64,000 nucleotides of DNA. Origin: Fibrobacterota bacterium. GTDB taxonomy: Bacteria; Fibrobacterota; Fibrobacteria; UBA11236. The position numbers and the translations under genes are program-made. The stretch covers positions 62,001 to 126,000 of the forward strand of contig CANKII010000006.1 of assembly GCA_947482115.1 (NCBI GenBank), in the 5' to 3' direction. Below the pieces are notes generated by a model. That model saw only the letters and a program-made list of their open reading frames with translations, was not told the DNA's origin and did not search any database. Positions 321-24,164 of the stretch are shown piece after piece (the stretch's first letter is position 1; each line of letters begins with the position of its first letter).

Positions 321-1487
321 ATGGGCGGAAACACAGATTTTAAAGATATGCGGGCGCTTCTTCTGGGTTATTACGGCAGCCACAACCTGGGGGACGACAT
401 GATGATGGCGTGTCTGTTGGACGGCATGCAGTCACAGGGCGCCCGTGTCACGGTGATTTCCGAGGATCCGGCCGAAACGCGCGCACGATTTGGAATTCCC
501 GCCTTGCAAAACACGCCCTTGTCGGGTCAATGGGATTTTCCCGGCAATTGGTTGCGTGGCGATCCCTTCCGGCTCCTGCGTGCGATTTGGAACACGGATA
601 TTCTCGTGGTGGGCGGCGGAGACTTGATTCGCGACGACATCGGACCGCAAATCTTTCTTTATACGGTGGAAAAAATCCTGGTCGCTTTGCTTTTGGGGCG
701 TCCGGTGTATCTCGCGAATGTGGGTTTGCCCGAGCCCAAAACCTGGTACGGCGGTTTTTGCCTGCGTTGGATTCTACGCTGTTGCAAAGGCGTGATCGTG
801 CGCGATTCGCGATCGGTGGCCTTGCAGAAAAAATTTGCGCCGGAAAATCCTTGTGTTCATGTTCACGATGTGGTCATGCATTTGCCGGAAATGGTTTACG
901 GTTCGTCGACCGCCATTCCTGTTTTCGCGCCGCCCTCCCAATCCGGATCCATCGCGGTTTGTCTTCGCGGCCAGCCCAACGCCTATGGCCGTTATGTTCT
1001 GGAGCAGAAACACATTCAGGGTCTTGCGGCCGGCTTCGATCATCTGGTGGAAAAGCACGGAGTCCGCATTGTATTCCTTCCCTTTCAACAAGGGGATGAA
1101 TGGGGCGATAATCCGTTGCATCGTCAGGTGTTTGCCGCCATGAAAATGCAAGACAGCGCCACCGTCCGGGAATGGACGGGGAATTTCAAAGAAGTAATGG
1201 AGTGCATCGGTGCGGCACGCTGCGTAATCGCCATGCGCCTTCACTCCGCGATTCTGGCGCTTGCCTTGCGCCGTCCCTGCATCCTCATGCCCTATGATCA
1301 GAAGCTGGATGAACTCGGGGAGCACTTTGCATTGAGGCCCGCGATTCGTTCTGTGGATCTGGAAAATCCCGAACATCTCAATCTCATGCTGGATGCGTTT
1401 CTCGCCACGGTTGATTCACATGTCGTGGCGAACAGCGGACCGCTATGGGAAAATTCCATCTACCGCCATTTTCTGGAATCCCGATGA
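321..1487 (+). CDS. Polysaccharide pyruvyl transferase family protein
   Basis: A 388-residue protein of the CsaB/WcaK type, which transfers pyruvate from phosphoenolpyruvate onto polysaccharide sugars as ketals. The N-terminus carries GYYGSHNLGDDMMM, the glycine-rich start of the first Rossmann-like domain. Near residues 295-325 is the family signature MRLHSAILALALRRP followed by a YDQK stretch, thought to bind the substrate. Start choice is uncertain: ATG 321 or ATG 348 both precede the first strand and neither has a clear Shine-Dalgarno. It overlaps the next gene by 4 bp (ATGA), implying translational coupling in the exopolysaccharide operon. Pyruvylation would give the polymer an acidic substituent. 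Confidence 0.88.
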   Translation: MGGNTDFKDMRALLLGYYGSHNLGDDMMMACLLDGMQSQGARVTVISEDPAETRARFGIPALQNTPLSGQWDFPGNWLRGDPFRLLRAIWNTDILVVGGGDLIRDDIGPQIFLYTVEKILVALLLGRPVYLANVGLPEPKTWYGGFCLRWILRCCKGVIVRDSRSVALQKKFAPENPCVHVHDVVMHLPEMVYGSSTAIPVFAPPSQSGSIAVCLRGQPNAYGRYVLEQKHIQGLAAGFDHLVEKHGVRIVFLPFQQGDEWGDNPLHRQVFAAMKMQDSATVREWTGNFKEVMECIGAARCVIAMRLHSAILALALRRPCILMPYDQKLDELGEHFALRPAIRSVDLENPEHLNLMLDAFLATVDSHVVANSGPLWENSIYRHFLESR

Positions 1488-2701: not shown

Positions 2702-2817
2702 TTTTCCACGAATTTCAATGAATGTCCGTTAATATTTCATAATGAATGACGGATTTTAAAACCAACTTTCCGGGTTTCGCCTTATCTTAATACAGTATGA
2801 ATGATTTGAGGGCGCGG

Positions 2818-4269
2818 ATGAAAACCTTAATCGGTATCATTACTACAGTCTTGCTTCCGATATCGATTTATTCGGGGACGGTCAACATCACCGTGGTCGG
2901 TTCCGGTCCAGGTACCCCTCCTGTTCCCGGAGTAAAGGTGGTATTGATTCAAGGCAACGGCTTCGGTCCACATGTCGATTCCGGAACGTCCGACGCTACG
3001 GGTCTGGTCACTTTTCTCAATGTCAGCATAGGTATTTATGTGGTGCAAGCCAGTAAGTCCGGATATAATAACGGAGTCATATTAATTGATGTGAATACGA
3101 TTCCTCAGATAGTCAACGCAAATGTCAATTCCCTCATCAACAATTGGACGTCCACCATTCAGGGGTTTGTCAAAAAAGCTTCGGATTCTTCCAGCATGGC
3201 GGGGGTATTGGTAACGCTTTCCGGCGGCCCCTGCGGAGACAACCCAAAAAATATTCTCACGGACAGTTCGGGGCATTATAAACTGGATAGTGTTTGCACC
3301 GGGACGGGCCATAATGTTGCGGTTAATTTGTTTGGTTATCTGGGAACCAGTGCGGGAAACGTTGCCGTTGCTTGGAACGCCATCACCACGGTAGGAACAC
3401 TATATCTCACCAGCAATCGTGGAAGCATTTCAGGAACCATTCGTCGCAATGACAGCGCGACTATCGTCATTCCCGGTGCTAAAGTCATGTTTTTGAATGG
3501 CACCGCCAAAGTGGACAGCATCACCACGGATGCGAATGGAAATTATTCCAAGGTTCTGAATACTGCTTCTTATAACATTCGCGTCAGCGCTGTAGGAATG
3601 AAGAGCAACCGTGGTCTCCCCACCAAGGATACGATGGCTACTTTGGTCTTCGGAAGCAATACCGTTATGAACACCGGTTTGACTCCGGCTCTTTCCACTA
3701 TCGGTGGAACCATTCATGGCACCAACGCCACCACGGGTCCGATTGTTTCGGGCGCTAAGGTTGTTCTACAACGCCGCATGGCTTCTACACCAGCTGCACA
3801 AGCTGTTTATTATACCCTCGACTCCACTATAACGGACGCAAACGGAATCTTCTCCTTCTCGAACTTGATTGCTGCTCCGGCTCCGGCTAGTGCGACAAAT
3901 GGAAGCTATCACGTTCTGGTGAATGCGAATGGATTTCGGACATACCCAAACACGCCAGCGGAAAATACCGCTGATGTGTATCAAGTGGCGTATGGTGCGA
4001 CCTACATCGTCACACCGAACATTGCTTTGTTCATTCAACCGATATCTATAAATTCTGTTCATAGCAACGCCGGTCAACCAATTCATTTTTCCTTGATGGG
4101 TGATCAATTGATTATGAATCTCAATTCTTCAAGTGTTGTCCGTACACTCGAGATTTTCGATCTGAAGGGTGTGTTGCAACGCACTATCCAAATCCCCGCC
4201 AATGAATCGCGAATCACTCTTCCCGCATCCTTTGCACCGGAAAAGGGATTTCTCTACGGGTTGAAATGA
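2818..4269 (+). CDS. Secreted carboxypeptidase-regulatory-like repeat protein, copy 1
   Basis: A 483-residue exported protein. ATG 2818 is preferred over 2797 because MKTLIGIITTVLLPISIYS then forms a clean signal peptide and GAGG lies just upstream. The mature part is built of four or so beta-sandwich modules of the carboxypeptidase-regulatory/CnaB-like type (for example GVKVVLIQG, SITTDANGNYSK, GISG-type turns, STIGGTIHGTNATTG). The last ~55 residues form a separate module, VRTLEIFDLKGVLQR to GFLYGLK, resembling the C-terminal sorting tails of Fibrobacterota and type IX-secreted proteins. It is followed with a short overlap region by a paralog at 4281-5759. A surface adhesin or matrix scaffold role is an inference; no enzyme motif is seen. 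Confidence 0.8.
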   Translation: MKTLIGIITTVLLPISIYSGTVNITVVGSGPGTPPVPGVKVVLIQGNGFGPHVDSGTSDATGLVTFLNVSIGIYVVQASKSGYNNGVILIDVNTIPQIVNANVNSLINNWTSTIQGFVKKASDSSSMAGVLVTLSGGPCGDNPKNILTDSSGHYKLDSVCTGTGHNVAVNLFGYLGTSAGNVAVAWNAITTVGTLYLTSNRGSISGTIRRNDSATIVIPGAKVMFLNGTAKVDSITTDANGNYSKVLNTASYNIRVSAVGMKSNRGLPTKDTMATLVFGSNTVMNTGLTPALSTIGGTIHGTNATTGPIVSGAKVVLQRRMASTPAAQAVYYTLDSTITDANGIFSFSNLIAAPAPASATNGSYHVLVNANGFRTYPNTPAENTADVYQVAYGATYIVTPNIALFIQPISINSVHSNAGQPIHFSLMGDQLIMNLNSSSVVRTLEIFDLKGVLQRTIQIPANESRITLPASFAPEKGFLYGLK

Positions 4270-4280
4270 GAAAGGAAACC

Positions 4281-5759
4281 ATGAAAACACTTTTCTATTT
4301 GATTTTCGCCTCATTGCTTCCGGTTTCGATTTGGTCGGCAACAATCTCTGGCATTGTCGGCAACCCGGCTCCCGGTACACCGGTTGCAGGTGTCAAGGTG
4401 GTGCTGATTGAGGGAACAAGCACAGGCCAGCACCTGGATTCGATCAACACAGATGGTGCGGGAAATTTCAGTTTCTCCACGGTCGGTACGGGTACTAAAA
4501 CTTTGATTGCCAGCAGGCCGGGTTATAACGGTGGCGCTGCGCTGGTGGGAGTGAGCAACTTCAATGCAAGTTATTCAGCCAACATCAGCATTACCATTAA
4601 CAACAGTACCTCAACAGTACAAGGATTCGTGAAGCGAGCTTCGGATTCTTCCGTGGTGGCCGGAGCTACAGTACGCCTCACTCCCAACAACGTAACGGCG
4701 GATCCCGCTCCAATTTATACGACCCAAACCGACAGCAATGGAAAATATCACTTTGACAGCCTGTTCACAGGATGGTCTTGCTTTATTACGGCTAGCTTAC
4801 CGGGCTATTTGGAGAGCAGTCTCAGTAATGTTCTTACAGTTTGGAACTCCACCACTACGGCTGGTACCATGTACCTCACACGCAACATCGGAAGTATTTC
4901 GGGCACCATTCGGCGCAATGACAGCGCCACGGTCGTCATTGCAGGCGCCAAAGTTGTGTTTTTGGTTGGAACCGCGAAAGTGGACAGTGCAACCACGGAT
5001 ACGAATGGGAATTATTCCAAGGTCTTGGGTGCAGCTACTTACAATATTCGCGTCAGCGCTGCAGGAATGAAAAGCGATCGTGGGTATCCGAGCAAGGATA
5101 CCACCGCCACGGTGAATTTTGGTAGCAATACCGTTATGAACACGGGTCTTACCCCGGCTCTTTCCACTATCGGCGGAACCATTCATGCCACCAATGCGAC
5201 CGGGGGTCCGATTGTTTCCGGCGCGAAGGTTGTGTTACAGCATCGCATGAGATCCATTCCGGCTGCCCAGGCTGTTTGGTACAGTTTGGATTCCACGACG
5301 ACGGATGCGAATGGGATTTTCTCCTTCTCGAATCTGATTTCCGCCCCGGCTCCGGCTAGTGCAACGAATGGAAGTTACCGGGTTTTGGTGACTGCTACAG
5401 GATATCGGAACTATCCCAACACCACAGCGGAAAATAATGCAGACGTTTATCAAGTGGCATATGGCGCGACCTACATAGTCAATCCGAACATTGCGATGAC
5501 TATTGGATGTCTTTCGCTTCCTGTAGATTGTATGGAGATTTTTTCCAATTCTCAGGAAAGATTACAGAACATTCGTTTTTCCTTGATGAGCGATCAGTTG
5601 ATTTTGAATCTCAATTCTTCAAGTGTTGTTCGCACACTCGAGATTTTCGATTTGAAGGGTGTGTTGCAACGAAGCGTTCAAATCCCTGCCAATGAATCGC
5701 GAATCATTCTTCCCGCATCCTTTGCACCGGAAAAGGGATTTCTCTACGGGTTGAAGTAA
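4281..5759 (+). CDS. Secreted carboxypeptidase-regulatory-like repeat protein, copy 2
   Basis: A 492-residue tandem paralog of the preceding gene. ATG 4281 follows AAAGGAAACC, a good ribosome site, and gives the signal peptide MKTLFYLIFASLLPVSIWS; a frame from 4266 would add five residues and overlap the previous stop. It has the same beta-sandwich modules (GVKVVLIEG, TTDTNGNYSK, STIGGTIHATNATGG) and almost the same last 55 residues. The C-terminal DNA is nearly identical to copy 1, including at synonymous sites, whereas the N-terminal and linker parts differ clearly. Copy 2 carries an insertion before the tail (around CLSLPVDCMEIFSNSQE) with two cysteines missing from copy 1. Function is inferred only as cell-surface or matrix structural protein. 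Confidence 0.8.
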   Translation: MKTLFYLIFASLLPVSIWSATISGIVGNPAPGTPVAGVKVVLIEGTSTGQHLDSINTDGAGNFSFSTVGTGTKTLIASRPGYNGGAALVGVSNFNASYSANISITINNSTSTVQGFVKRASDSSVVAGATVRLTPNNVTADPAPIYTTQTDSNGKYHFDSLFTGWSCFITASLPGYLESSLSNVLTVWNSTTTAGTMYLTRNIGSISGTIRRNDSATVVIAGAKVVFLVGTAKVDSATTDTNGNYSKVLGAATYNIRVSAAGMKSDRGYPSKDTTATVNFGSNTVMNTGLTPALSTIGGTIHATNATGGPIVSGAKVVLQHRMRSIPAAQAVWYSLDSTTTDANGIFSFSNLISAPAPASATNGSYRVLVTATGYRNYPNTTAENNADVYQVAYGATYIVNPNIAMTIGCLSLPVDCMEIFSNSQERLQNIRFSLMSDQLILNLNSSSVVRTLEIFDLKGVLQRSVQIPANESRIILPASFAPEKGFLYGLK

Positions 5760-10100: not shown

Positions 10101-11645
10101 ATGAAAAATTTCCTCAAAATACGCTGCTTTCTCACTCTCGTGGCAACTGTCGCTTTCATGTCCATTCCCGTTAACGCATCCCAGGCTGCAGTGGATTATC
10201 TGGCAGTCGTTCCTCATTCCTCCCATATCAGCATGATGGCCACCGATTTCCGATCCAATCAAACCGCCGCGGAATACGACTGGAATGCGGCGCATTATGA
10301 TCAGGTGATGGCGGGGAAGATCGGGGAATACCGCAAGCGCAATGCCGCCATCAAGTTTTATGTCTATGCGCTGAATCTCACGGTTCTTCAGGAAACCACA
10401 GCCGACCCCGCAGATTCAACCATGGTGTATTACAAGGACATGCAAAAATGGTATGCAGCCCATACGACGTATAAAATCGAGGACGCCTTTTTGCACGATG
10501 GGGTCGTCTGTCCGACCGCACAAACCAAGACTGCCGCCTGCCGTATTCAGGTTTCCTGGAACGTGCATGTGCGCTGGGTGATCAACCCCGGTGATGCAGG
10601 ATTGCGTCTTTACAATGCCGATCGTCTCAAGCGCATCACCACAAACGTGGGGGGATCAAGCTACAATGCGGACGGTGTTTTTTTCGACGAGCACGACTCC
10701 GGAGAATTCTCCCACTGGAAAACCTTTTCCATCCGTGAATATCCGGTGTGGACCCAGTATGAAAACGACATGGTCGATTTGCTGGCCTCCGAACGCAAGG
10801 CCTTGGGGAAAGTTATCCAGCTCAACACGGCGGAATACATCAGCGCGGTGGATCAACGCATGATCCTTGCCGCCGGCGCTGCGCACATGGAGCTGGCGAA
10901 CAATCCCTTGAATGATCAAATGGAAGCCCGCTGGAGTTTCATCGACACCGTTCTTCAGAAGGGCGCTTTAGTGGAAATGGTCAATGCCTACACATGGGCT
11001 GATGCGACCGCCATCGCCACGCTTTCTTCCGGTAACCAAAGCACGCCCCAGTTGCGCTTCAAAACCACCGAGTTGTGCAGTTATTACATGGTGGTTCCCG
11101 CCTCCGCAACCAAACTCACCTTGTACATGGCCAACGACGGATGGTCCACTCCCTTTTCCCAGCAATGGTTGAAGTCGGTGGAAGTGGATATCGGTCATCC
11201 CGTGACAGCGCGGTCCATGGTCTTTCAGGGCAAGGATCCCAAAGGCCGTGCGGCGCGCATCTGGTCCCGGGAATTCGACAAAGCCGTGGTTTATATGCGC
11301 CCCAAGGTCGGTTGGGATTACAACGACTACAGCGACAGCACCAAAATCACGGTTGCCCTTCCCTCGGGTCAAAAGTGGTATCCCGTTTTGTCGGACGGCA
11401 CTCAAGGTTCGGCCGTAACTTCGGTGACGCTGCGTAATTCCGAGGGAATGATTTTGATCAAGGGCGGTGCGACTCAATCCGCCACGGGCATTGATTTCAG
11501 CAAGGAATTTTCCAGCCGCAAAGGAAGGGTCATCACTTTAAGCGGCGACGAACCCTTGGTGATGGATACCCGGACATTGGATGGTAGGTTTTCCCGAGCG
11601 ATGCGCGAGGAGTCCATAACGATTCCCGATGTCCAAGTCCGCTGA
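10101..11645 (+). CDS. Secreted TIM-barrel glycosidase-like protein, paralog 1
   Basis: A 514-residue exported protein (signal peptide ~1-29, cleavage near VNASQA). ATG 10101 follows GAGAACC. Strand-like segments spaced as in an alpha/beta barrel are visible: ISMMATDF, IKFYVYALN, ADGVFFDEHDSG, VIQLNTAEY, HMELANNP, LVEMVNAYTW and CSYYMVV. A C-terminal beta domain (IWSREFDKAVVYMRP to EGMILIKG) resembles those of alpha-glycosidase-like proteins. The acidic residues in FFDEHDSG at a strand end are the best catalytic candidates. Two cysteines (VCP...ACRIQ, ~13 apart) are conserved in all three paralogs. It resembles 'putative glycoside hydrolase' families of unknown specificity. A ~55-residue C-terminal extension is absent from the other two. 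It may trim or cleave the exopolysaccharide made here. Confidence 0.75.
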   Translation: MKNFLKIRCFLTLVATVAFMSIPVNASQAAVDYLAVVPHSSHISMMATDFRSNQTAAEYDWNAAHYDQVMAGKIGEYRKRNAAIKFYVYALNLTVLQETTADPADSTMVYYKDMQKWYAAHTTYKIEDAFLHDGVVCPTAQTKTAACRIQVSWNVHVRWVINPGDAGLRLYNADRLKRITTNVGGSSYNADGVFFDEHDSGEFSHWKTFSIREYPVWTQYENDMVDLLASERKALGKVIQLNTAEYISAVDQRMILAAGAAHMELANNPLNDQMEARWSFIDTVLQKGALVEMVNAYTWADATAIATLSSGNQSTPQLRFKTTELCSYYMVVPASATKLTLYMANDGWSTPFSQQWLKSVEVDIGHPVTARSMVFQGKDPKGRAARIWSREFDKAVVYMRPKVGWDYNDYSDSTKITVALPSGQKWYPVLSDGTQGSAVTSVTLRNSEGMILIKGGATQSATGIDFSKEFSSRKGRVITLSGDEPLVMDTRTLDGRFSRAMREESITIPDVQVR

Positions 11646-11678
11646 ATTGCCTACACTTTACCTCGAAAGAGGTGGGCT

Positions 11679-12809
11679 TTGTCGCGGATCCCAAGAATAC
11701 ACGAGTTTGAAACCTTGCGCGGATTGCTGGCGCTGTGGGTGGTGGTTTATCACATCTCCACTTTTGCGGGCATTTTTCCCGACAAGTGGCCGCTTCCATT
11801 CGGTCTGTTGGGACACGGTGATTATGCCGTGCACATTTTCATCATCCTGAGCGGCTTCGTCATTTTTGCCCTGCTGGACGGGGAATCCGAATCCTACCGG
11901 CAATTCATGATTCGCAGGGCATTTCGGCTCTTTCCCGTTTACTGGCTTTGTTTGATCGTCGCCGTTCCCCTTGTTTCCTTCAACATCGCGACGATTCAGG
12001 CCTTGCATTGGTGGCATCCCAATTCGCCCGCACGCATCCAAATCTTTTCGGATTCCCTTCAATATTTCTGGGCGCATTTGATCGCCCATGTGACTCTATT
12101 GCACGGAATCATCCCCACGCGCTATCTGCCTTCAACGCAGTTTGCATTTGTGGGCCAGGCGTGGAGCATCAGTCTGGAATGGCAGTTTTATTTGATTGCA
12201 CCCCTGTGCTTCCTGTGGATTTCCCGGAAAAAATTCCTGCAACTCGGTCTTTTTGCCATCGCCCTTTTTCTGTTGCGACATTTTTTTGAATGGGGAGTCG
12301 GAGCTTTGCCGCGAAGCGCGCATTTGTTTTTGGTCGGCGCTCTGGCGTATTATGGATATCGCTTTGTGAGGGATCACAAGGATATTTTGCAACCGGCGGG
12401 TCCCGTCGTTGCCTCGCTTCCGCTGGTGTTCGCGGTCTTTTTCGCGCCGACCATTCCCCGGATTCTTTTCTGCCTCGTGTATTCCATGGTTCTGGGCCGT
12501 GAATTGATGCCGGATCAAACCCTTTTGAAATGGGCGTCGAAACCTTTCCAGTGGAAACCCTTTCTGTATCTGGGCAGAATATCCTATTGCATTTACATGA
12601 CACACATCCTCGTCCTGTATGTTTGCGCGCATTTTCTCACTCCGTTTTTTAACGATCAACATGTTTTTTTCGCAGTCCTGTTTGCCGTCGTATTGACTTG
12701 TACTCTTCTGGTTTCGGCACTGGTTTCCCGTTATATCGAGTATCCCGGCATGGCATTGGGAAAGCGTCTTGCAAACCACCGGAAACCGGATTCATCGTTG
12801 CCGGCATGA
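11679..12809 (+). CDS. Membrane O-acyltransferase (acyltransferase family 3), copy 1
   Basis: A 376-residue multi-spanning protein with ~10 hydrophobic segments. The start is TTG 11679: AAGAGGTGG sits 4-8 bp upstream and no ATG is suitably placed. Family landmarks are FETLRGLLALWVVVYH (with the N-terminal histidine considered catalytic), the RRAFRLFPVYW loop, and SISLEWQFYLIAPL. Enzymes of this OafA/ExoZ type transfer acetyl or succinyl groups from the cytoplasm onto sugars of lipid-linked glycans or exported polysaccharides. It lies 33 bp after the first glycosidase-like gene and 19 bp before a paralog, so the polymer may be acylated at two positions or by two acyl groups. Confidence 0.88.
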   Translation: MSRIPRIHEFETLRGLLALWVVVYHISTFAGIFPDKWPLPFGLLGHGDYAVHIFIILSGFVIFALLDGESESYRQFMIRRAFRLFPVYWLCLIVAVPLVSFNIATIQALHWWHPNSPARIQIFSDSLQYFWAHLIAHVTLLHGIIPTRYLPSTQFAFVGQAWSISLEWQFYLIAPLCFLWISRKKFLQLGLFAIALFLLRHFFEWGVGALPRSAHLFLVGALAYYGYRFVRDHKDILQPAGPVVASLPLVFAVFFAPTIPRILFCLVYSMVLGRELMPDQTLLKWASKPFQWKPFLYLGRISYCIYMTHILVLYVCAHFLTPFFNDQHVFFAVLFAVVLTCTLLVSALVSRYIEYPGMALGKRLANHRKPDSSLPA

Positions 12810-12828
12810 CCTTGTGAAAGAAGCCGGT

Positions 12829-13929
12829 TTGTCCCGAATGCCGAGGGTGCATCTGTTTGAATCCCTGCGCGGCCTGCTGGCGGTGTGGGTGATTGTGCAT
12901 CACGCTGTTTTAACATCGGGATTGGATTCGGATCGCTGGCCTTTTCCGTTGAGTCTGTTCGGGCAGGGTGGCTATGCGGTGGATGTATTCATCATCCTCA
13001 GCGGCTTCGTCATTTTTTTTCTGCTGGACAATGAAACGGAAACCTATGGAAGATTCATCACGCGGCGCGTCTTCCGCTTGTATCCCGTGTATTTGACAAG
13101 CCTGCTGGTTTCCGCTCCGCTGATTCCATTTTACCTCTCGACCTTGAAAGCCCTGCCGTGGTGGCACCCTCACACCTCCCTGCGTATTCAACATTTTAGT
13201 GACACCCTTCAATATTACTGGGCGCATTTTTTTTCCCATGTTCTGATGCTGCACGGACTCGTGCCGGATCGGCTGCTTCCTTCCAGTGATTATGCGTTCG
13301 TGGGTCCGTCATGGAGCATCAGTCTGGAATGGCAGTTTTATCTGGTCGCGCCGTTGTTTTATCTGTGCATCTCCGGAAAAAAAATCGGACGGCTTGCGCT
13401 GTTGATAGCCCTCTTGTTTTTATTGCGAGGGTTCTATCCGGGTGGGCCTGGATTTTTGCCCTTGAAAGCCGAATTCTTTTTCACCGGCATCGCGGCTTAT
13501 TACGGATACCGTTTCGTGGTCCGGCACAGGGAAGTTTTGGAATCATCCGCGCTGCTGGTGGCCGCATTACCGTTTCTGTTCACCTTGTTTTGGATTTCAT
13601 CGGTTCCCATGGTGTTGTTTTCAGCGGTGTATTCGATAGTTCTCGCCACGGTTCTGATGCCCGGCAGCCGCGTGGTGAAAGCGACGTTATGGTTGTTTGA
13701 ACGGAAATCACTGCTTTATGCCGGAAGGATTTCCTATTGTCTTTACATGACACACATGGTGATTCTGCTTGCATGGGCGCATTTTTTGATCCCGTTTTTT
13801 AAAAATCAAGCCGCGTTCTTTGTCACATTGCTCGGAGCCGTTTTGATATCCACCTTTTTGGTGTCGACGCTGGTTTCCCGTTACATCGAGTATCCCGGCA
13901 TAGCATGGGGAAAGCGTCTTACAAAATGA
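12829..13929 (+). CDS. Membrane O-acyltransferase (acyltransferase family 3), copy 2
   Basis: A 366-residue paralog of the preceding acyltransferase. TTG 12829 is chosen by alignment with copy 1, since MSRMPRVHLFESLRG matches MSRIPRIHEFETLRG; ATG 12838 is an alternative. It keeps FESLRGLLAVWVIVHH, RRVFRLYPVY and SISLEWQFYLVAPLF. The 3' ends of the two copies are close at the DNA level around YIEYPG and GKRL, suggesting recent exchange. Its stop overlaps the ATG of the next gene (ATGA at 13926-13929), so it is translationally coupled to glycosidase-like paralog 2. Acyl donor and acceptor are unknown. Confidence 0.87.
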   Translation: MSRMPRVHLFESLRGLLAVWVIVHHAVLTSGLDSDRWPFPLSLFGQGGYAVDVFIILSGFVIFFLLDNETETYGRFITRRVFRLYPVYLTSLLVSAPLIPFYLSTLKALPWWHPHTSLRIQHFSDTLQYYWAHFFSHVLMLHGLVPDRLLPSSDYAFVGPSWSISLEWQFYLVAPLFYLCISGKKIGRLALLIALLFLLRGFYPGGPGFLPLKAEFFFTGIAAYYGYRFVVRHREVLESSALLVAALPFLFTLFWISSVPMVLFSAVYSIVLATVLMPGSRVVKATLWLFERKSLLYAGRISYCLYMTHMVILLAWAHFLIPFFKNQAAFFVTLLGAVLISTFLVSTLVSRYIEYPGIAWGKRLTK

Positions 13930-15296
13930 AGGCGACGATCTTTGTCCTGCTGACGGGTTTTGTGGGATGGGCGGCCAAGACACCCTTAAAGCCTCCCATG
14001 GATTACGTTGCCACGGTTCCCCACGCCTCGCACATCAGCATGATGGCGACGGATTTCCGCTACGATCAACCGCCTGAGGAATACGATTGGACGGCGAAGC
14101 ATTATGATCGGATCATGAGCGGGAAGATTGCGGAATATCGCCGCCGCAATCCGGCCATCAAGTTTTATGTGTACGCGGAAAACCTGATCGTGATTCAGGA
14201 AACGCACCGCGATCCCCCCGAGATTTTTACGGCCTATTACAACGACATGAAGCATTGGTATGAATCCCATCCGGCGTACAAAATCGAGGATGCGTTTCTT
14301 CACAACGCGGCAGTTTGTCCCGCGAAAAAACCCAAAATACGTGCCTGCCGCATTCAGACCACCTGGGCCGAGCATCTTCGCTGGGTGATGAATCCCGGCG
14401 ATGCGGGATTGCGCGCTTACAACGCCGATCGGTTGCACCGCATTGTCACCAATCTGAATCAAACGGGCTACGATGCCGATGGAATTTTTTTCGACGAACA
14501 TGACTCCGGCGTCTTTTCCCACTGGAAAACCTTTTCCATTCGCGAGTATCCGGTCTGGGGCCGTTATGAAGACGATGTCATCGGTCTGCTTACCTTCGAA
14601 CGCCGTGCGCTCGGAAAGTTGATTCAACTCAACACTGCCGAATACATCTCCTCCATGGATCAGCGCATGACGCTTGCCGCAGGGAGCACCCACATGGAGC
14701 TTGCCAACAATCCGTTGAATGACTGGCTGGAGGATCGCTGGCGTTTCATCGACACACTTCTTCAAAAAGGAGCTTATGTCGAGTTTGTCAACGCTTACAC
14801 GTGGAAGGACGCAGCCGTCATACCCGGACTTTCACGGGGAAACCAGCCGTCCCCTCTGCTGCGATTTAAGATGTCGGAGCTGTGCAGTTATTACATGGTG
14901 GTTCCCGCCGTCGCTGCCAACCTGAGCTTGTTCATGGGCAATGACGGATGGAGTGTCCCCATGCCACAGCAATGGATGAAAGCGATTGAAGTGGATGTCG
15001 GCCATCCGTTGGGGCCGCGGACTCTGGCATATCAGGGAAAGACTTCCGGTGGAAAACCGGTGCGCATCTGGCGCCGGGAATTCGGAAAGGCGCTGGTGTT
15101 TATGCGCTCCAAGGTGAGCTGGGACTACAATGACTATGGGGATGGATCGGGGGTTGCGCTCAACCTTCCGTCCGGTGAAAAATGGCACCCCCTTCTTGGA
15201 GATGGTACCTTAGGGCCACCCGCAACTTCAGTGATATTGCGTAATCCCGAGGGAATGATTTTTATCAAAGGCTCCGCGTTGCCGCGAAACCATTAG
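13926..15296 (+). CDS. Secreted TIM-barrel glycosidase-like protein, paralog 2
   Basis: A 456-residue paralog of the 10101-11645 product. ATG 13926 overlaps the previous stop as ATGA and gives a short signal peptide, MKATIFVLLTGFVGWAA. All barrel landmarks are kept: HISMMATDFR, IKFYVYAEN, ADGIFFDEHDSG, LIQLNTAEY, HMELANNP, YVEFVNAYTW and CSYYMVVP, as is the cysteine pair VCP...ACRIQ. It ends at GSALPRNH, without the C-terminal extension of paralog 1. With an intact FFDEHDSG it is expected to be as active as paralog 1. The substrate is likely the glycan of this locus, an inference from position only. Confidence 0.75.
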   Translation: MKATIFVLLTGFVGWAAKTPLKPPMDYVATVPHASHISMMATDFRYDQPPEEYDWTAKHYDRIMSGKIAEYRRRNPAIKFYVYAENLIVIQETHRDPPEIFTAYYNDMKHWYESHPAYKIEDAFLHNAAVCPAKKPKIRACRIQTTWAEHLRWVMNPGDAGLRAYNADRLHRIVTNLNQTGYDADGIFFDEHDSGVFSHWKTFSIREYPVWGRYEDDVIGLLTFERRALGKLIQLNTAEYISSMDQRMTLAAGSTHMELANNPLNDWLEDRWRFIDTLLQKGAYVEFVNAYTWKDAAVIPGLSRGNQPSPLLRFKMSELCSYYMVVPAVAANLSLFMGNDGWSVPMPQQWMKAIEVDVGHPLGPRTLAYQGKTSGGKPVRIWRREFGKALVFMRSKVSWDYNDYGDGSGVALNLPSGEKWHPLLGDGTLGPPATSVILRNPEGMIFIKGSALPRNH

Positions 15297-15309
15297 TTTT
15301 AGAGGTGTC

Positions 15310-16671
15310 ATGAAAACGATTTTGATCCTTTTGGGTGTCTGCTCCAGAGTTCTGGCGGTTCAAGCGCCCGTGGATTACAAACCCACCGTTCCCCATTCCT
15401 CCCACATCACCATGATGTTGTCGGATTACCGCTACCATCAAATCCCCACCGAATACACGTGGACCACGAATCATTACGATCATGTGATGAGCGGCGACAT
15501 CCAGCAATACCGCAAACGCGCGCCCTCGATGAAGTATTACTCCTATGCCTTGAACCTGACGATCATTCGCGAAACCCCCGGGGACAAGCCGGATCTCGCC
15601 ATGACCTATTATCGCGACATGCAAAAGTGGTATGCGGCAAATACCAAGTACCAGCTGGAAGACGCTTTCTTGCACGATGCCTCCATCTGCCCGGGTTCCC
15701 GTCCCAAGACGGAAACCTGCCGGGTGCAAACATCGTGGGGTCAGCACACGCATTGGGTGGTTCATCCCGGAGACCCGGGGTTGCGGGCCTATGATGCGGA
15801 TAGAATCCAGCGCATCACAACCAAGGTTGGGGGGACGGCCCACTCCGCCGATGGAATTTTTTTCGATCAGCACAGTTCCGGGGATTTCAATTACTGGAAG
15901 ACCTTTTCCATTCGTGAATACCCTGTCTGGAGCCGCTATGAGAATGATGTGGTCGATTTGCTTGTGTTTGAGCGCAAGTCTCTGGGAAAAATCATTCTGA
16001 TCAACACCTCGGAGCTCATCGGACCCATGGAGCAGCGCATGGTTCTGGCTGCGGGCGGTGCGCACATGGAATTGCTGAACAATCCGTTCAGCAACGAAAT
16101 GCGGGAGCGCTGGTCTTTCATCGATGTTCTTCTCAAACAGGGTGCATTCGTGGAAATGGTCAATGCTTATACGTGGAACGGGATTTCCAGAAAACCCGGC
16201 TTCACCCCTGGTAGCCAGATGACCCGCCCCATGCGTTTAAAAATGGGCGAGTTGTGCAGCTATTACATGGTGGTTCCCATACCCGCCACCAATCTGGCCG
16301 TGGATATGGTCAATGACGGCTGGAATGACAATTATTCCTGGCAATGGCTCCGGGCGATTGAAGCGGATGTGGGGACTCCCACCGGTCCGCGCGCCATTGC
16401 GTATCAGGGATTGGATTCACTCGGAAAGCAAATTCTGATTTGGCGGCGTGAATTCGACAAGGCTGTGGTTTTCATGCATTACCAAAAACCGTGGGATTAT
16501 GAAAATTACGGGGATAGCACGGCTTTTTCGCTTCCTTTGCCCTCTGGTGAGACTTGGTATCCCTTGAAAGGGGATGGTACCTTGGCCGATCCTGTCACTT
16601 CGGTGAACATCCGCAATGTGGAAGGGGTCATCCTGTTCAAAGGCAGCGCCCTCCCTCCCAGCCCCCAATAG
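15310..16671 (+). CDS. Secreted TIM-barrel glycosidase-like protein, paralog 3 (altered acidic motif)
   Basis: A 453-residue third paralog, 13 bp after paralog 2, with AGAGGTG before ATG 15310 and signal peptide MKTILILLGVCSRVLAVQA. It keeps the fold landmarks (HITMMLSDYR, MKYYSYALN, HMELLNNP, FVEMVNAYTW, CSYYMVVP) and the cysteine pair (ICP...TCRVQ). The acidic motif FFDEHDSG has become FFDQHSSG: two of the three acids of the motif are replaced, leaving only the first Asp. This is where a catalytic acid is expected, so paralog 3 may be inactive, bind without cleaving, or use another chemistry. It closes the glycosidase/acyltransferase block; the following 216 bp are AT-rich. Confidence 0.73.
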   Translation: MKTILILLGVCSRVLAVQAPVDYKPTVPHSSHITMMLSDYRYHQIPTEYTWTTNHYDHVMSGDIQQYRKRAPSMKYYSYALNLTIIRETPGDKPDLAMTYYRDMQKWYAANTKYQLEDAFLHDASICPGSRPKTETCRVQTSWGQHTHWVVHPGDPGLRAYDADRIQRITTKVGGTAHSADGIFFDQHSSGDFNYWKTFSIREYPVWSRYENDVVDLLVFERKSLGKIILINTSELIGPMEQRMVLAAGGAHMELLNNPFSNEMRERWSFIDVLLKQGAFVEMVNAYTWNGISRKPGFTPGSQMTRPMRLKMGELCSYYMVVPIPATNLAVDMVNDGWNDNYSWQWLRAIEADVGTPTGPRAIAYQGLDSLGKQILIWRREFDKAVVFMHYQKPWDYENYGDSTAFSLPLPSGETWYPLKGDGTLADPVTSVNIRNVEGVILFKGSALPPSPQ

Positions 16672-16806: not shown

Positions 16807-16887
16807 CCATCTCTTTGATTGACAGGGAGTTATGGGGTCGGTATCCTTTCATATTCATCGCAATCTCATTGTCATCGCGGAAGTAAA

Positions 16888-19374
16888 ATGGAACAACAAC
16901 AAAATTCCCAGTCCGGCGAAGAGCGCGTCGATTTGCAGGAGATCTTGAACCCGAAGTCCAAGATTTCCTCAATATCCACTTTTGCCCATATCTTTTGGCT
17001 GCGACGCTGGTTCATTCTCGGTGTATGGCTGGTCCTCGGAGTTCCGGCCGCTCTGTTTCTGGCTTTTTACGACATCCCCCGCACTTACTGGGCCACAAGT
17101 TACTTGCGCTTTCCCAACGTCGTGGGCGCCGAAGACAACATGGTTCACGACATGGCTCTGGGAAATTCAAGTTCGATTTTCACATTGATTAAGAGTTACA
17201 ACGTCATGTCCCGCACCATTCACAACAAGAAGCTGCAGTTTCAGGTGCGCACCAAGGATGTTTTCCGTCGTAACGTTTTTGAAGACATCCAGTATGAGGA
17301 TAACGCCCCGTACGGACATTACATCTTTCTTTTTCAGTCCAATCGCAATCTGGAAATAACTTACCTGCCTCCAGGCAGCAAGAACAAAAAAGTGGTATTC
17401 CGCAACATGGTTCCCGAAAACGGCGTCGTGTCCATTCCTTCGATGACTTTGCGAATCAACCGCAAGCTGCTTTCCATCGGAGGCTCGGCCAAGGTGGAGG
17501 CGGATTTCATTCCTTCGCAATACGCGTTCATGCTGCTTAAAGCCAAGTTAAGCGTGGGTTCGCTGGACAAGGAAGAGTCCCAGGCCAAGGTAAACTACGC
17601 GGTCACACTGGAGGGCGACGATCCTTACATGGTGGCCGATGTGTTGAACGATCTTCTTCAAAATTTCATCGTGGTTTATTCCGGCACCAGCGAAGGGCAG
17701 GATGTCAGCGTCATCACCCAGATGGAAAAGGATTTGGAAAATGCACGGAGGCGTGAACAGGAAGCGCGCGATGCGCTGGCGCGCTTTTATTCCGGTCATC
17801 CGGTGTTGCTCGAAACCCAGCAGACCGATTCCTATGCGCTGGTGAACGCGCAATCGGACAAAACCCAGCTTGAGGATCGCCTCGAAAATCTTCAACAGCT
17901 TCAAAATCGCAAGCCCCCTGCCGATGCCAACAACCGGCGCAAAAAAACATGGATCTCCGATGCGGCATTCCTGTTGAATTCCTACGGAGTGCTTCAGGCC
18001 AATTCCATTCAAAGCCGTCTGCAGGAGACGGAAGCCAAAAGAACGGAGCTTTCCACCAAGCTGCCGCCGAGTCACCCGCGCATCGCCGCATTGGATGCAG
18101 AGATCGCCTCGCTTCAACCCGAGCTCGATCAAATCCTCATCGCAGTTCAGAGAGGCTGGGCCCAGAAACTGGAACAGGCTCGTGCCATGGTTGCCGAACA
18201 TCTTCCCAAAAACATGCCCATCGCCGCCGATCTGGAAGCCAAAAGACTGACCACGGAAAAAGAAGGCGCGGCCAAAGCGGTTGAGGATCTTCAAACGGCT
18301 TACAACAAGGCCAAGCTGGGAATGGGCCGCAATGTTTTCAAAGTCAATATTGTGGATGAAGCGCGCACCCCTTCCTATCAGCCCCCGAGCTGGAAACGGC
18401 GCCTCGCTTTCTCTCTCGCCGCATTCGTGTTGACTCTTTTCCCGGGATTCGTCTGGGTTGTCTTATTGCAAATCTTTTTCGGACGCGTTTACACGCGTGA
18501 CGATGCCGATCGCAAGCTGGGACTCAAAGTGCTGGGCGAGGTTTTCTTTCAGGAGCCCATGCAACCCAACGATTGGAAGGATCCCCTGGACTCCTCCATT
18601 CTTCCCCACGTTGAAAATTTCCGGTTGGTGCGTTCCGAAATCGAGAATTATTTCTCCAACTCTTCGAAGCTGGCCTTTCTAATTACCAGCGCCAAGCCGG
18701 GTGAAGGGAAGTCTCTTTTTGCGGCCAACATTGCCGTGAGTTTCGCGCGTCATGGATCCCGCACTTTGCTGGTGGATGCCGATTTGCGCCATGGCAATCT
18801 GACACACGTGTTCGGCGCGCGGCGCGACACGGGATTGACGGATCTTTTGCGTGAACCGGCACAGGATCGGGAAACCCAGAAGAACCGTATTTTAAGCGCC
18901 GTGGTTCCCGCCAAGGAAAAAAATCTTTTCTTCCTGCCAAGAGGCGGGCATGAATTGCGTCCCGGCGAGCCGATTAATCAAAATCGCATGGAGGAATTTC
19001 TTTCCATGATTCGCGGAGAATTCGACGCCCTTGTGGTGGATACGTCACCGGTATTGCCGGTTGCGGACGCCTTGAATCTCATGAAGGTGGTTTCCAATGT
19101 CGTGTTCCTGGTGCGGTCGGGTGAAATATCCTCGCTCGATGCCAACGAAACCCTCGAGCGAATCAAGGCGCGCGGAGTTCGTGTGGGTTGCGTCTTGAAC
19201 GCCATTGAAGAGACTCCGTTTGTGAAGAATCATTTTACCGCCTATCAGGAATATTACACCTCCGACAGTGTGGATGCCGCTCCGGCGGCTCCCGCCCCCC
19301 CGACCCCGGTGAGCGAGGAAAAACGACCCGTGTCCTATCTGTCGCAAAGCGCCGTGGAAAGTTTGATCCGTTAA
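16888..19374 (+). CDS. Polysaccharide co-polymerase / bacterial tyrosine autokinase (Wzc-like)
   Basis: An 828-residue inner-membrane protein. ATG 16888 has GGAAGTAAA upstream; an earlier in-frame start at 16819 has no ribosome site. The chain-length-determinant part has transmembrane helices at ~40-60 and ~505-530, with a long periplasmic region rich in coiled coil (~270-490). The cytoplasmic BY-kinase domain holds Walker A SAKPGEGKS (~600), Walker A' LLVDADLR (~628) and Walker B ALVVDTSPVL (~713). The C-terminal tail carries a small tyrosine cluster (YQEYYT) for autophosphorylation, then an Ala/Pro-rich stretch. Such proteins set chain length and drive export with a Wza-type channel, here at 20572. 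It is separated by 4 bp from the FemAB-like gene. Confidence 0.92.
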   Translation: MEQQQNSQSGEERVDLQEILNPKSKISSISTFAHIFWLRRWFILGVWLVLGVPAALFLAFYDIPRTYWATSYLRFPNVVGAEDNMVHDMALGNSSSIFTLIKSYNVMSRTIHNKKLQFQVRTKDVFRRNVFEDIQYEDNAPYGHYIFLFQSNRNLEITYLPPGSKNKKVVFRNMVPENGVVSIPSMTLRINRKLLSIGGSAKVEADFIPSQYAFMLLKAKLSVGSLDKEESQAKVNYAVTLEGDDPYMVADVLNDLLQNFIVVYSGTSEGQDVSVITQMEKDLENARRREQEARDALARFYSGHPVLLETQQTDSYALVNAQSDKTQLEDRLENLQQLQNRKPPADANNRRKKTWISDAAFLLNSYGVLQANSIQSRLQETEAKRTELSTKLPPSHPRIAALDAEIASLQPELDQILIAVQRGWAQKLEQARAMVAEHLPKNMPIAADLEAKRLTTEKEGAAKAVEDLQTAYNKAKLGMGRNVFKVNIVDEARTPSYQPPSWKRRLAFSLAAFVLTLFPGFVWVVLLQIFFGRVYTRDDADRKLGLKVLGEVFFQEPMQPNDWKDPLDSSILPHVENFRLVRSEIENYFSNSSKLAFLITSAKPGEGKSLFAANIAVSFARHGSRTLLVDADLRHGNLTHVFGARRDTGLTDLLREPAQDRETQKNRILSAVVPAKEKNLFFLPRGGHELRPGEPINQNRMEEFLSMIRGEFDALVVDTSPVLPVADALNLMKVVSNVVFLVRSGEISSLDANETLERIKARGVRVGCVLNAIEETPFVKNHFTAYQEYYTSDSVDAAPAAPAPPTPVSEEKRPVSYLSQSAVESLIR

Positions 19375-19378
19375 TCCC

Positions 19379-20512
19379 ATGAGGTCCCAGATGATTCTTG
19401 TTGAAGAGCGTCCGGTGCTTGGTGACACTGCGGAAAGCAAGTCCTTCGAAAGTCGCATGAAAAATCGCGAGACGTTCAAGATTGCCTTCATGGCCGAAGA
19501 TCAGGAACCCGAGGTTCGTAATTTTTTAATCCAGCATCCCGACGCCACTTTCAGTCATCATCCCGGTTGGGTGGATGTGTTGCGCGAAGCCTATGGCAGA
19601 CGCGTGCTTTTTCTTGTGGCGCGGAATGGAAACGGATCGCTGGCAGGTGTCATTCCCGTGGTGGATTTGAGCAGTTCGCTTTTCGGAAAGCAGTGGGTTT
19701 CGTTGCCGTATCAGGACTACGGAGGCCCGCTTGTTTCCAATCCCGCTGCTGAGACGGCGCTGGTGGAGGCATTAAAACGCAAGGCCAGCGCGCATGGTTG
19801 CCGTTTGGAAATCCGTTCCGGCCGGCCCATGACATCGTATCCGGCTCCGGAAAATGACAAAGTGGCCATGACCCTTTCGCTGGAAGGTTTCACCGAAGAA
19901 ACCTATTGGAAAAAATTGAATGCCCGAGTGCGCAATCAAGTGCGCAAGGCGGAAAAGTCCGATGTGACTTTAAAACGCGGTGATCTGGATCAACTGGATC
20001 CCTTTTACTCGGTCTTTTGCGCCAACTCCAGGAATCAGGGATCTCCCGTCCATGCGCGGCAGTTTTTTGCGAGCATACTCCATCACATTCCGGGTTCCGA
20101 AATTGTGACCGCATGGCGTGAAGGTCGTTGCATTGGCGGTTTGGTGCGGATTCGTTTTCGCGGAGTCATGGCGATTCCCTGGGCCGCGACCCTGAAGGAT
20201 GAACGGGTTTATTGCCCCAATCACGCCATGTATTATGACAGCATCCGCACGGCTTTGCTGGAAGGCCTGCGTGTTTTGGATTTTGGACGCAGCAGCCGGG
20301 GCGAAGGCACCTTCCGCTACAAGACTCAATGGCTTGCCGAAGCGTCTCCGTTGGCTTGGTATCCTTTTGACGTTCAGGGCAATGCGCTGGATGAAGTCAG
20401 CCACCCACAATCCTCGCTCAAGCTTCGCTGGGGCTCGGTCGTGTGGAGTCATCTTCCTTTGCGGCTGGTAAACTGGCTCGGACCCCGTTTGCGCCACTCA
20501 CTCGCCGCCTGA
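19379..20512 (+). CDS. FemAB-like GNAT-superfamily protein of exopolysaccharide loci
   Basis: A 377-residue cytoplasmic protein. ATG 19379 or ATG 19391 (preceded by AGG) may be the start. It consists of two GNAT-like folds as in FemA/FemB: TFSHHPGWVDVLREAYG at the front, SLPYQDYGGPL in the middle, KLNARVRNQVRKAEKS before the second domain and LDFGRSSRGEGTFRYK near the end. This combination matches the FemAB-related proteins that accompany exosortase/PEP-CTERM exopolysaccharide clusters. Classical FemAB enzymes transfer amino acids from aminoacyl-tRNA to peptidoglycan; in these loci the acceptor is unknown, perhaps an amino sugar. The neighbouring Wzc-like and Wza-like genes support a polysaccharide role. 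Confidence 0.85.
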   Translation: MRSQMILVEERPVLGDTAESKSFESRMKNRETFKIAFMAEDQEPEVRNFLIQHPDATFSHHPGWVDVLREAYGRRVLFLVARNGNGSLAGVIPVVDLSSSLFGKQWVSLPYQDYGGPLVSNPAAETALVEALKRKASAHGCRLEIRSGRPMTSYPAPENDKVAMTLSLEGFTEETYWKKLNARVRNQVRKAEKSDVTLKRGDLDQLDPFYSVFCANSRNQGSPVHARQFFASILHHIPGSEIVTAWREGRCIGGLVRIRFRGVMAIPWAATLKDERVYCPNHAMYYDSIRTALLEGLRVLDFGRSSRGEGTFRYKTQWLAEASPLAWYPFDVQGNALDEVSHPQSSLKLRWGSVVWSHLPLRLVNWLGPRLRHSLAA

Positions 20513-20571: not shown

Positions 20572-21378
20572 ATGATGCGTATCAAAACGTTAAACACGTT
20601 GAATCGATTTGCCCCCCGGCAATGGGTGATGGGGTTGGCAGCATGCCTTATCCTGACCACCGCAATCTTTGCCCAGGCGCCCGTCGACAATTCCAAGGGT
20701 GAGATTTTCCGCGCGGGGGACGGCATATTGCTTTCCGTTCCCATGGACACGGAATCCGTGATTAACGGTTCCTTTCCGATCGATTCCGCCGGTTATGCGG
20801 ACTTGCCCGTGGTGGGTCGCATATTCGTGCACAACAAAACATCGAGACAAGTCGAGGATTATGTCTCCAGAGAAATGGCCCAGTATCTTCGGGACACCCA
20901 TGTGCGGGCCAAACCCGCCGTTCGGTTGTTGCTCGTCGGTTTTTGGCAGCATCCCGGAATGCATTATGTGGAAGCCAACGCCTCGGTTTGGGAAGCCGCC
21001 AAATTGGCGGGAGGTCCCGCTGGCGAAGTCAACATCAAGAAGTGGATCGTCATGCGCGGCAGCGAGGATCTCACGCTTCCGATTCTGGACGAATTTTCCC
21101 GCGGCACGACGCTTCGCAATGCAGGCGTGCAATCCGGAGACATCTTTGTCATTCCGGTGCCCAATGAACATTCAGGATTCTGGTACTGGTTCACACAGGG
21201 CTTGAGCGCCACGGCACAGGTTGCCACGGTTGCCACCGCGGTTCTGTCGGTCTACATCGCCTACCTGATTTATCATGACACCAATAATAACGGCAACAAT
21301 CAAAACACCCATAATGATTGCACCACGACGGTGACGGGAAATGTTTCCACCACCAATTGCCATACCTACCCGAATTAG
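20572..21378 (+). CDS. Polysaccharide export outer-membrane protein (Wza-like), short form
   Basis: A 268-residue exported protein with AGAGG before the ATGATG start and a signal peptide ending near AIFAQA. No lipobox cysteine is present. It has the polysaccharide-export domain (FRAGDGILLSVPM, ~45-125) and one SLBB-like domain (VGFWQHPGMHYVEANASVWEAAKLAGG, in part, ~130-200). A hydrophobic helix follows (TAQVATVATAVLSVYIAYLIY), then an Asn/Thr-rich tail with two cysteines. The helix may form part of the outer-membrane pore as in Wza. It probably works with the Wzc-like kinase upstream. A strong hairpin after the stop ends the operon. Confidence 0.87.
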   Translation: MMRIKTLNTLNRFAPRQWVMGLAACLILTTAIFAQAPVDNSKGEIFRAGDGILLSVPMDTESVINGSFPIDSAGYADLPVVGRIFVHNKTSRQVEDYVSREMAQYLRDTHVRAKPAVRLLLVGFWQHPGMHYVEANASVWEAAKLAGGPAGEVNIKKWIVMRGSEDLTLPILDEFSRGTTLRNAGVQSGDIFVIPVPNEHSGFWYWFTQGLSATAQVATVATAVLSVYIAYLIYHDTNNNGNNQNTHNDCTTTVTGNVSTTNCHTYPN

Positions 21379-22567: not shown

Positions 22568-23881
22568 TTACCCCACTAACGAACGAAGTTCGGCTTCTTC
22601 CAGCACGCTCTTGGTGGAGGAACCCTTGCCGGACATCTTACGCAGATAGTCCGCATTGGATTGCGCCACTTCGGGGCTTTCATAAAGCTGGGACAAGGGA
22701 ACTACGTTGTCGCGAATCAAATTCCGGACGCCGGGCAGTCCTTCCTTGACTGAACCAAAGGAGAAGCGTTCCAGCAGGCGATCGAGTTTCCACTCGGTGC
22801 TTTCCAGATTGACATAGTGTTGAAAAGTTTTGCTTGCGCCCAGGTAGTAACGGGACTGTTCCGAGTCCAGCTCCCACGGGTGCAAATACACCATGGCGGG
22901 CAGGCCATTGCGGTTTTCATTTTCGATGAACGCTGCGGTAAGGTGATAGGGATAAAGGCGGAAATAGCCTCCACCTGCAACGGGAAGCAGTTTGTTGGAT
23001 CCCAACAACCGCGTTGTGGACATGGGAAGCTCAATCAAAGGGCGGCCATCCGGCATCCGTAAAGTATGCGGATGCCTCTGTGAATAACCCTCAATTCCAT
23101 AGCGTTTTCTGCCGATGGGGAAAATGCTGGAATCATAGCGAATGCCGTTCTTGGCCAGAATTTCCAAAGCCCACAAGGTGTCCTTGACCACGGTGAAGTT
23201 GGAGGCGCGATGTCCCAAGACTTCTTGCGAGGTGTGCCGGTTAATGGCCTCAAGGGATTGCAGCAGATCCGCTTCGAACTCCTGAGGAGTCATGCGGGTC
23301 ACAAGTTCATGATGATAGCCGTGCGTGGCAATTTCATGGCCTTCCGCATCAATCATGCGTACGACTTCGGGAAAATGATCCGCTACCCAGCCGAGTACGA
23401 AGAATGTGGCCTTGGTGTTGTGAGCCTGAAGCAAAAGGAGCAGGCGGTCCATGTTTTTCAGAATCTGGGTTTCCTGAAGATGCCAGGTGCTGCGGGGAAT
23501 TTTGTCCCCAATGTTATAGGCATGGAACCAGCATTCCACATCAATGGTCAGAAAGTTCCGGACTTTGGCCGGGGTCGGCTCCACAATTTTACCGGGAAAA
23601 TTCACCGGTTCTCCAGGTTGTCTGTCCGAATCCGCATGAACAGCATCGTGCCGGTGTTGGCCGCGCATGCCAAGCTGGCCGTTTCCATGGATTAACCGGA
23701 GAAAAAACTGCCGCATGTCATGCGTAGGAATGGCAAGCACGAATGAATTTTTGGAATTGAGCCGGATCAGCAATGCCAAAAGGGGGTAGGTCAAAACCCA
23801 CAAAGCTAGGCCGCCCGCACCACCCATCATTTCGATGATGCGCATGGCCCAGCCCACCCATGGGGAGGATTTTACGCCCAT
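22568..23881 (-). CDS. Polysaccharide deacetylase, DUF3473/XrtA-associated type
   Basis: A 437-residue protein starting at ATG 23881 (GGGG upstream); a TTG 12 bp earlier is less likely. An N-terminal hydrophobic segment (~20-45) may anchor it in the membrane, followed by a ~50-residue linker. The NodB-type domain has TIDVECWFH (motif 1 acids), ATFFVLGWVADHFPEV, HEIATHGYHHELV (metal histidines), GHRASNFTVV and YDSSIFP. The C-terminal part has LHPWELDSEQSRYYLG and a HYVNL segment typical of the DUF3473 deacetylases that sit in exosortase-linked exopolysaccharide loci. It would remove N-acetyl groups from the polymer in the periplasm. No exosortase gene is present in the window. Confidence 0.9.
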   Translation of the reverse strand: MGVKSSPWVGWAMRIIEMMGGAGGLALWVLTYPLLALLIRLNSKNSFVLAIPTHDMRQFFLRLIHGNGQLGMRGQHRHDAVHADSDRQPGEPVNFPGKIVEPTPAKVRNFLTIDVECWFHAYNIGDKIPRSTWHLQETQILKNMDRLLLLLQAHNTKATFFVLGWVADHFPEVVRMIDAEGHEIATHGYHHELVTRMTPQEFEADLLQSLEAINRHTSQEVLGHRASNFTVVKDTLWALEILAKNGIRYDSSIFPIGRKRYGIEGYSQRHPHTLRMPDGRPLIELPMSTTRLLGSNKLLPVAGGGYFRLYPYHLTAAFIENENRNGLPAMVYLHPWELDSEQSRYYLGASKTFQHYVNLESTEWKLDRLLERFSFGSVKEGLPGVRNLIRDNVVPLSQLYESPEVAQSNADYLRKMSGKGSSTKSVLEEAELRSLVG

Positions 23882-24164
23882 TTTATGCCCCAAATGCGTG
23901 TTTTGACGATCAAAACAAGGCCCTCGAAAAAATGTTTGGTGGGGATGTCCCCGTTACGCGATGAATTACGTCTCTGGATTAAAGATGACAACTTTGCGCA
24001 ATCGACGCAATCAAAAACAGCCTATTTCATGGTGTGTAATCGCTTTGAAATGTTTGTTAATTCTTATTCAATTTTTATTTTTTAGAAAGAACCTTGGTGA
24101 GCCAGCAGAAGTTTGCTTATTCGGGCTTTTTTGGAGCTAAAAACAGAGCAAATTTTCACTCTCC

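Follow-up and report, generated by a model that had tools for sequence, protein, structure and literature searches.

Putative GHL15-like glycosidases interleaved with AT3 acyltransferases in an XrtA-type exopolysaccharide locus of a Fibrobacterota bacterium

Introduction

What might three paralogous, glycosidase-like proteins do when their genes are interleaved with two membrane acyltransferase genes? The question is raised by a Fibrobacterota genome (assembly GCA_947482115.1), from which we analysed a stretch of 64,000 nucleotides (contig CANKII010000006.1, positions 62,001 to 126,000), referred to here as the window. An initial annotation, made from the sequence alone, described a block of three secreted glycosidase-like paralogs and two acyltransferases and suggested that a duplicated module serves exopolysaccharide (EPS) maturation. 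Positions are those of the window unless another locus is named, and residues of the glycosidase-like proteins follow GH1 numbering.

Results

Gene order and start sites

Five long open reading frames (ORFs) occupy positions 10101–16671 on one strand (+), in the order GH-like, acyltransferase, acyltransferase, GH-like, GH-like, just as initially annotated:

10101..11645, + strand, GH1: putatively exported GHL15-like candidate glycosidase, 514 aa
11679..12809, + strand, AT1: AT3 (PF01757) membrane acyltransferase, 376 aa, TTG start
12829..13929, + strand, AT2: AT3 (PF01757) membrane acyltransferase, AT1 paralogue (longest ORF 12769–13929, 386 aa)
13926..15296, + strand, GH2: putatively exported GHL15-like candidate glycosidase, sister of GH1 (longest ORF 13905–15296, 463 aa)
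15310..16671, + strand, GH3: putatively exported GHL15-like candidate glycosidase, earlier-branching copy, 453 aa

AT2 probably starts at the TTG at 12829, from which its product begins like that of AT1 from its own TTG (LSRMPRVHLFESLRG and LSRIPRIHEFETLRG); with this start, AT2 does not overlap AT1. GH2 probably starts at the ATG at 13926, giving the ATGA overlap with the AT2 stop that had been noticed earlier. The gap between GH3 and the following Wzc-like gene (16672–16818, 147 bp) is very A+T-rich and has a promoter-like match at its end; a scan for promoters and terminators found no more sites than in shuffles.

Paralogy and duplication history

The three GH-like proteins are paralogs, as had been proposed, with full-length identities of 62% (GH1–GH2), 55% (GH1–GH3) and 56% (GH2–GH3), and are the only GH-like copies in their genome (2.7 Mb, 99% complete). 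AT1 and AT2 are 55% identical over 366 residues, ungapped. Among the block copies, dN was 0.29–0.35 and dS 1.2–2.4 (dN/dS about 0.15–0.26), so the genes are under purifying selection and chance reading frames are excluded. In a GH tree with a homologue from a Nitrospirae-type genome (locus L065, described below) as the outgroup, GH1 and GH2 were sisters and GH3 was older (UFBoot 96), with an AU value of 0.95 for the GH1–GH2 sister tree vs 0.05 for each alternative. The dS values of GH1–GH2 (1.20) and AT1–AT2 (1.36) are alike, so both duplications may share one age, with the limit that values above 1 are near saturation and date the events imprecisely. A single tandem GH–AT duplication predicts the order GH-AT-GH-AT, whereas the observed GH-AT-AT-GH-GH needs at least one extra loss or move. 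The data thus support local duplication and favour a module only weakly: both the GH and the AT sets arose locally and are kept by selection, and the earlier idea of one duplicated GH/AT module is not supported in that form, given the gene order and the greater age of GH3.

An XrtA-type exopolysaccharide locus around the block

Judged by gene content, the surroundings of the block are an XrtA-type EPS locus, which bears out the exopolysaccharide setting first assumed. The relevant features are as follows:

321..5759, + strand, upstream part of the EPS locus
321-1487, + strand, pyruvyl transferase
1445-2701, + strand, stp1-type XrtA-system glycosyltransferase
2797-4269 and 4266-5759, + strand, two CarboxypepD_reg repeat proteins
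16819..19374, + strand, Wzc/EpsG-like chain-length determinant with tyrosine autokinase domain (TIGR01007, E 3e-31; TIGR03018; TIGR01005)
19379..20512, + strand, FemAB-like XrtA/PEP-CTERM-associated protein (TIGR03019, E 4e-68, below the curated cut-off)
20572..21378, + strand, polysaccharide export protein (Poly_export, PF02563)
22568..23893, - strand, XrtA-system polysaccharide deacetylase (TIGR03006, above the curated cut-off)

The GH/AT block directly precedes the Wzc, FemAB and export genes. Upstream there are also a family-2 glycosyltransferase and two glucose/sorbosone dehydrogenase-like proteins and, farther upstream, TIGR03108-, TIGR03098-, TIGR03097- and TIGR03088-like genes and two more deacetylases. 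Matches to TIGR03019, TIGR03087, TIGR03088, TIGR03108, TIGR03098 and TIGR03097 were strong and below their cut-offs; TIGR03006 was above. Known XrtA/PEP-CTERM EPS loci have the same stp1/stp2-type glycosyltransferases, TIGR03006 deacetylase, FemAB, Wzc and export proteins, TIGR03108-like amidotransferase, TIGR03098-like ligase and TIGR03097-like O-ligase. The present locus differs from them by its additional GH/AT block, by several members that score under their curated cut-offs and by the absence of any detected exosortase. Exosortase (PF09721) had no match in this genome (G000) or its genus and is present in 6/6 genomes of the sister genus; the XrtA-type locus (window 1–26000 together with the preceding G000:C6:42001–62000, L019) may thus have outlived its sorting enzyme.

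Other local repetitions were seen in this region. The two adjacent glucose/sorbosone dehydrogenase-like genes (PF07995; 6798–9839) lie directly before the block, and the first of them overlaps the GT2 gene upstream at that gene's end; the CarboxypepD_reg genes (2797–5759) form another local pair, possibly encoding surface or polymer-linked proteins. Within the same EPS locus, L019 10218–11916 holds three consecutive, overlapping ORFs that all contain hexapeptide acyltransferase-like repeats, which may point to an expansion of acyl transfer in cytoplasmic form as well. Just beyond the EPS locus, a 3-keto-disaccharide hydrolase domain (PF06439) is joined to CarboxypepD_reg (28678–30156).

Two AT3 acyltransferases

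The annotation of AT1 and AT2 as membrane acyltransferases was upheld: both exceeded the PF01757 cut-off of 31 bits (AT1, 96.6 bits, E 2e-27; AT2, 103.9 bits, E 1e-29) and carry AT3 motifs at the expected places. These are R-X10-H in the first transmembrane helix together with RXXR (RGLLALWVVVYH and RAFR in AT1; RGLLAVWVIVHH and RVFR in AT2), in agreement with the R/K-X10-H pattern, and the SG motif. AT3 enzymes that acetylate carbohydrates have R-X10-H, RXXR and SG in common, and OafA requires the arginines and the histidine of these motifs (PMC7448272). AT1 and AT2 share these motifs and a multi-span membrane architecture with OafA/OafB and Oac, and differ in having no fused SGNH domain and an acceptor that is only presumed; they probably acylate the polysaccharide of their own cluster.

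Sequence features of GH1–GH3

Export of GH1–GH3 is suggested by signal peptides judged by eye and hydropathy (about residues 1–29 in GH1); that of GH2 is weak by hydropathy, which counts against the explanation we favour. GH1 has a C-terminal tail of about 55 residues that GH2 and GH3 lack. The acidic motif FFDEHDSG, initially ascribed to all three proteins, is found in GH1 and GH2, while GH3 reads FFDQHSSG, a difference that likewise weighs against our explanation. An inactive GH3 owing to FFDQH was considered and rejected, as E197 is not conserved in GHL15. The conserved cysteine pair that had been described is C137 and C147, kept also in the Nitrospirae homologue; a third cysteine, C326, is shared by GH1–GH3 alone.

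Direct searches and structure models placed none of these proteins. Against Pfam, GH1–GH3 matched 0 families at E <= 10; NCBIfam gave no match at E <= 0.1, the PDB searched by sequence gave no credible match, and the PF14885 gathering cut-off (27 bits) was reached by none of the three. AlphaFold models with the three window copies as input were, for want of homologues, too poor for use (pLDDT 33 and 39), and a Foldseek search with the second returned nothing at E <= 0.001 (best E 0.06). Weak Foldseek matches of the C-terminal part of that model to amylase beta domains were not counted as evidence.

A remote relation to GHL15

Profile comparison pointed to GHL15 (PF14885, hypothetical glycosyl hydrolase family 15), a known family of glycosidases that is still unclassified. 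For this, 15 GHL15-type proteins were assembled, 14 from a PF14885 search of a second phylum and one (L068) that was found by the query itself. Using hhalign, GH1–GH3 together with the L065 homologue matched this set with Prob 98.6 and E 7e-16 over 360 colinear columns; GH1–GH3 alone gave Prob 98.3, and omission of L068, the only such member, gave 97.8. In the controls, the reversed and eight shuffled query alignments gave Prob <= 0.5, AT, deacetylase and xylose isomerase (an unrelated TIM barrel) gave <= 0.3, and other unrelated window proteins gave <= 1.3. As the E-values cover single comparisons, these controls outweigh the size of the E-value. The match is weak against single GHL15 sequences instead of the family alignment, which counts against our explanation.

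A joint alignment of 19 sequences pairs D196 with the D of DGIFxD in every one, and E264 with the E of MIEHF in 18, the remaining one having D there; this assignment depends on aligning sequences that are about 14% identical. GH1, GH2 and GH3 each retain both carboxylates of GHL15, making D196 and E264 the candidate catalytic pair. Core members of GHL15 match solved structures labelled as GHL15, GH114-type TIM barrel and endo-1,3-fucanase (E down to 1e-105). The initial reading of GH-like proteins with a TIM-barrel-like layout and acidic motif finds partial backing in a remote tie to a TIM-barrel family; the absence of a named CAZy family holds for direct search, and profile comparison links the proteins to GHL15.

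With GHL15 (PF14885; solved structures 9nhf and 8rg3), GH1–GH3 share a colinear, near-full-length profile match, the strand D of DG[IV]FxD, the later E of MIEHF, the N of the KLIxxN strand and a C-terminal LGxPxG...R[ED]F. They differ in lying below direct HMM detection, with 0 matches at E <= 10, and in three features that GHL15 lacks: an inserted cysteine-paired loop (CPxxxxKxxACRxQ), the DEHxSG motif and the FSIREYPVW motif. Since there is profile homology without a Pfam match, we place GH1–GH3 as a sister branch within the GHL15 superfamily rather than as PF14885 members, a branch that appears to be new and very divergent. FunA, a fucanase of family GH168, requires two strictly conserved acids, D206 and E264 (PMC7401878). 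These are likely equivalent to D196 and E264 of GH1; a PDB search intended to align a GHL15 protein directly with the fucanase gave no match. GH168/GHL15-type endo-1,3-fucanases (FunA; the solved 8ya6, presumably GH168) would resemble GH1–GH3 in the two acids and as secreted endo-glycosidases. They differ in being catabolic marine enzymes of remote similarity, whereas GH1–GH3 stand in an EPS biosynthesis context.

Homologues and rarity

Across 168 genomes of the window's own phylum, the GH1–GH3 profile matched only the genome that carries the block. Further profile searches covered 396 genomes (phylum of the Nitrospirae record) and 388 genomes (phylum of the Verrucomicrobiia record), and a four-sequence profile had no match in 324 genomes from the phylum of the Phycisphaerales record. 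One full-length homologue was recovered, from the Nitrospirae-type genome G296 (L065 9295–10860; 28% identity, 105 bits); in it the cysteine pair, the motif's D-E-H and the C-terminal region are all conserved. A weak match in G918 (L068) is assigned to GHL15 by Pfam (PF14885, E 3e-14). Other candidates were set aside: a match in G445 (E 0.004) was a false positive, an ABC transporter ATPase, and one in G439 was a C-terminal fragment only, at a contig edge. No relatives were found on genome contigs or viral contigs in automatic-pattern scans, or on plasmids by tblastn. Of 23 matches to the DNA pattern DG[IV]FFD[EQ]H across genome contigs 0 were homologous; those in Stahlbacteria (L031 3635–5200) fell in an unrelated repeat protein that contains GDW[DN]GIFFDEHT three times, a chance motif match. 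In the phyla sampled here the GH-like proteins are very rare, and no family model covers them.

The L065 homologue adjoins EPS genes, namely a chain-length/kinase gene (EpsF/EpsG-type), a glycosyltransferase, an EpsL-type gene and a flippase-like gene, the last judged from the sequence only; the link between this GH branch and EPS synthesis therefore recurs in a second phylum. The AT3 link does not recur, as no AT1/AT2 relative lies in the 20 kb around the homologue. No other genome of the genus, family or phylum carries the GH/AT block; in the sister genus, homologues of FemAB and of the export gene are present and no GH or AT relative is. A conserved GH–AT unit in related genomes, which the initial annotation had put forward for checking, is not supported, given these surroundings and near relatives in which neither gene was found.

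Discussion

Taking homology, the conserved acids, genomic context and the known pattern of EPS-operon enzymes together, we hold with moderate confidence that GH1–GH3 endo-cleave the EPS of their own cluster outside the cytoplasm, via Asp196 and Glu264, and that AT1 and AT2 acylate the same glycan. GH1–GH3 would be Sec-exported glycoside hydrolases, for which homology predicts a TIM barrel and, after it, a C-terminal beta domain, and the Asp/Glu pair would be catalytic. Their likely purpose would be trimming, clearing or release of the polymer, as for other EPS-operon glycosidases, with any division of labour among the copies presumed, while AT1 and AT2 would bring acyl groups, probably acetyl ones, through the inner membrane. 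Active carbohydrate-cleaving enzymes in EPS operons are an established pattern and affect polymer production, length or clearance (PMC5933820). Compared with PslG, the PelA hydrolase domain, the PgaB C-terminal domain, BcsZ and the lyase AlgL, the block has in common an exported cleaving enzyme in an EPS locus, and it differs in enzyme family and in having three paralogues interleaved with two AT3 genes where one enzyme per operon is usual. By this analogy it is most likely a variant of the known glycosidase-in-EPS-operon pattern.

GHL15 relatives also break down foreign polysaccharide, which counts against own EPS as the substrate. The GH proteins could be catabolic enzymes for a foreign polysaccharide, comparable to the GH168/GHL15 fucanases that act on fucoidan, and could have come to the EPS locus through a chance insertion; the characterised GHL15-type relatives are secreted degradative endo-fucanases, and the absence of the block from the rest of the genus, family and phylum is what a cargo insertion would show. 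We regard this as unlikely, considering that the block stands on the same strand directly before the Wzc, FemAB and export genes and overlaps translationally with an acyltransferase, that no transporter or sugar-catabolic genes adjoin it, and that the one clear homologue from another genome likewise lies in an EPS locus.

Quite unlikely, in our judgement, is a non-hydrolytic role, in which the proteins would act by transglycosylation or glycan binding to attach, ligate or guide the polymer while it is exported or anchored. FunA does perform transglycosylation (PMC7401878), Q replaces E in the GH3 DEH motif, and the retention of three copies suggests different tasks; set against this, both GHL15 carboxylates are present in 3/3 copies, and the E to Q change of GH3 at the non-conserved E197 is no proof of inactivity.

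That the GH copies recognise an acylation pattern set by AT1 and AT2, with GH and AT copies duplicated together as modules, is very improbable: the interleaved genes, the ATGA overlap and the similar dS (GH1–GH2 1.2, AT1–AT2 1.36) fit it, but those dS values are near saturation, one tandem module duplication does not yield the gene order, GH3 predates the GH1–GH2 split and the Nitrospirae homologue has no AT1/AT2 relative nearby. We give an equally slim chance to a new glycosidase family in which three co-expanded copies each cut the same EPS at a different AT3-written O-acylation pattern, jointly setting length and acylation outside the membrane.

Own-EPS cleavage together with acylation remains our preferred reading. 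GH1–GH3 would add an unmodelled, very divergent branch with a candidate catalytic pair to the GHL15 superfamily, and, in two distant phyla, would connect a GHL15-like branch with EPS synthesis and not just with the breakdown of polysaccharides. If they do cut the polymer of their own cluster, they may provide new tools to dissect XrtA-type polysaccharides, whose structures are poorly known.
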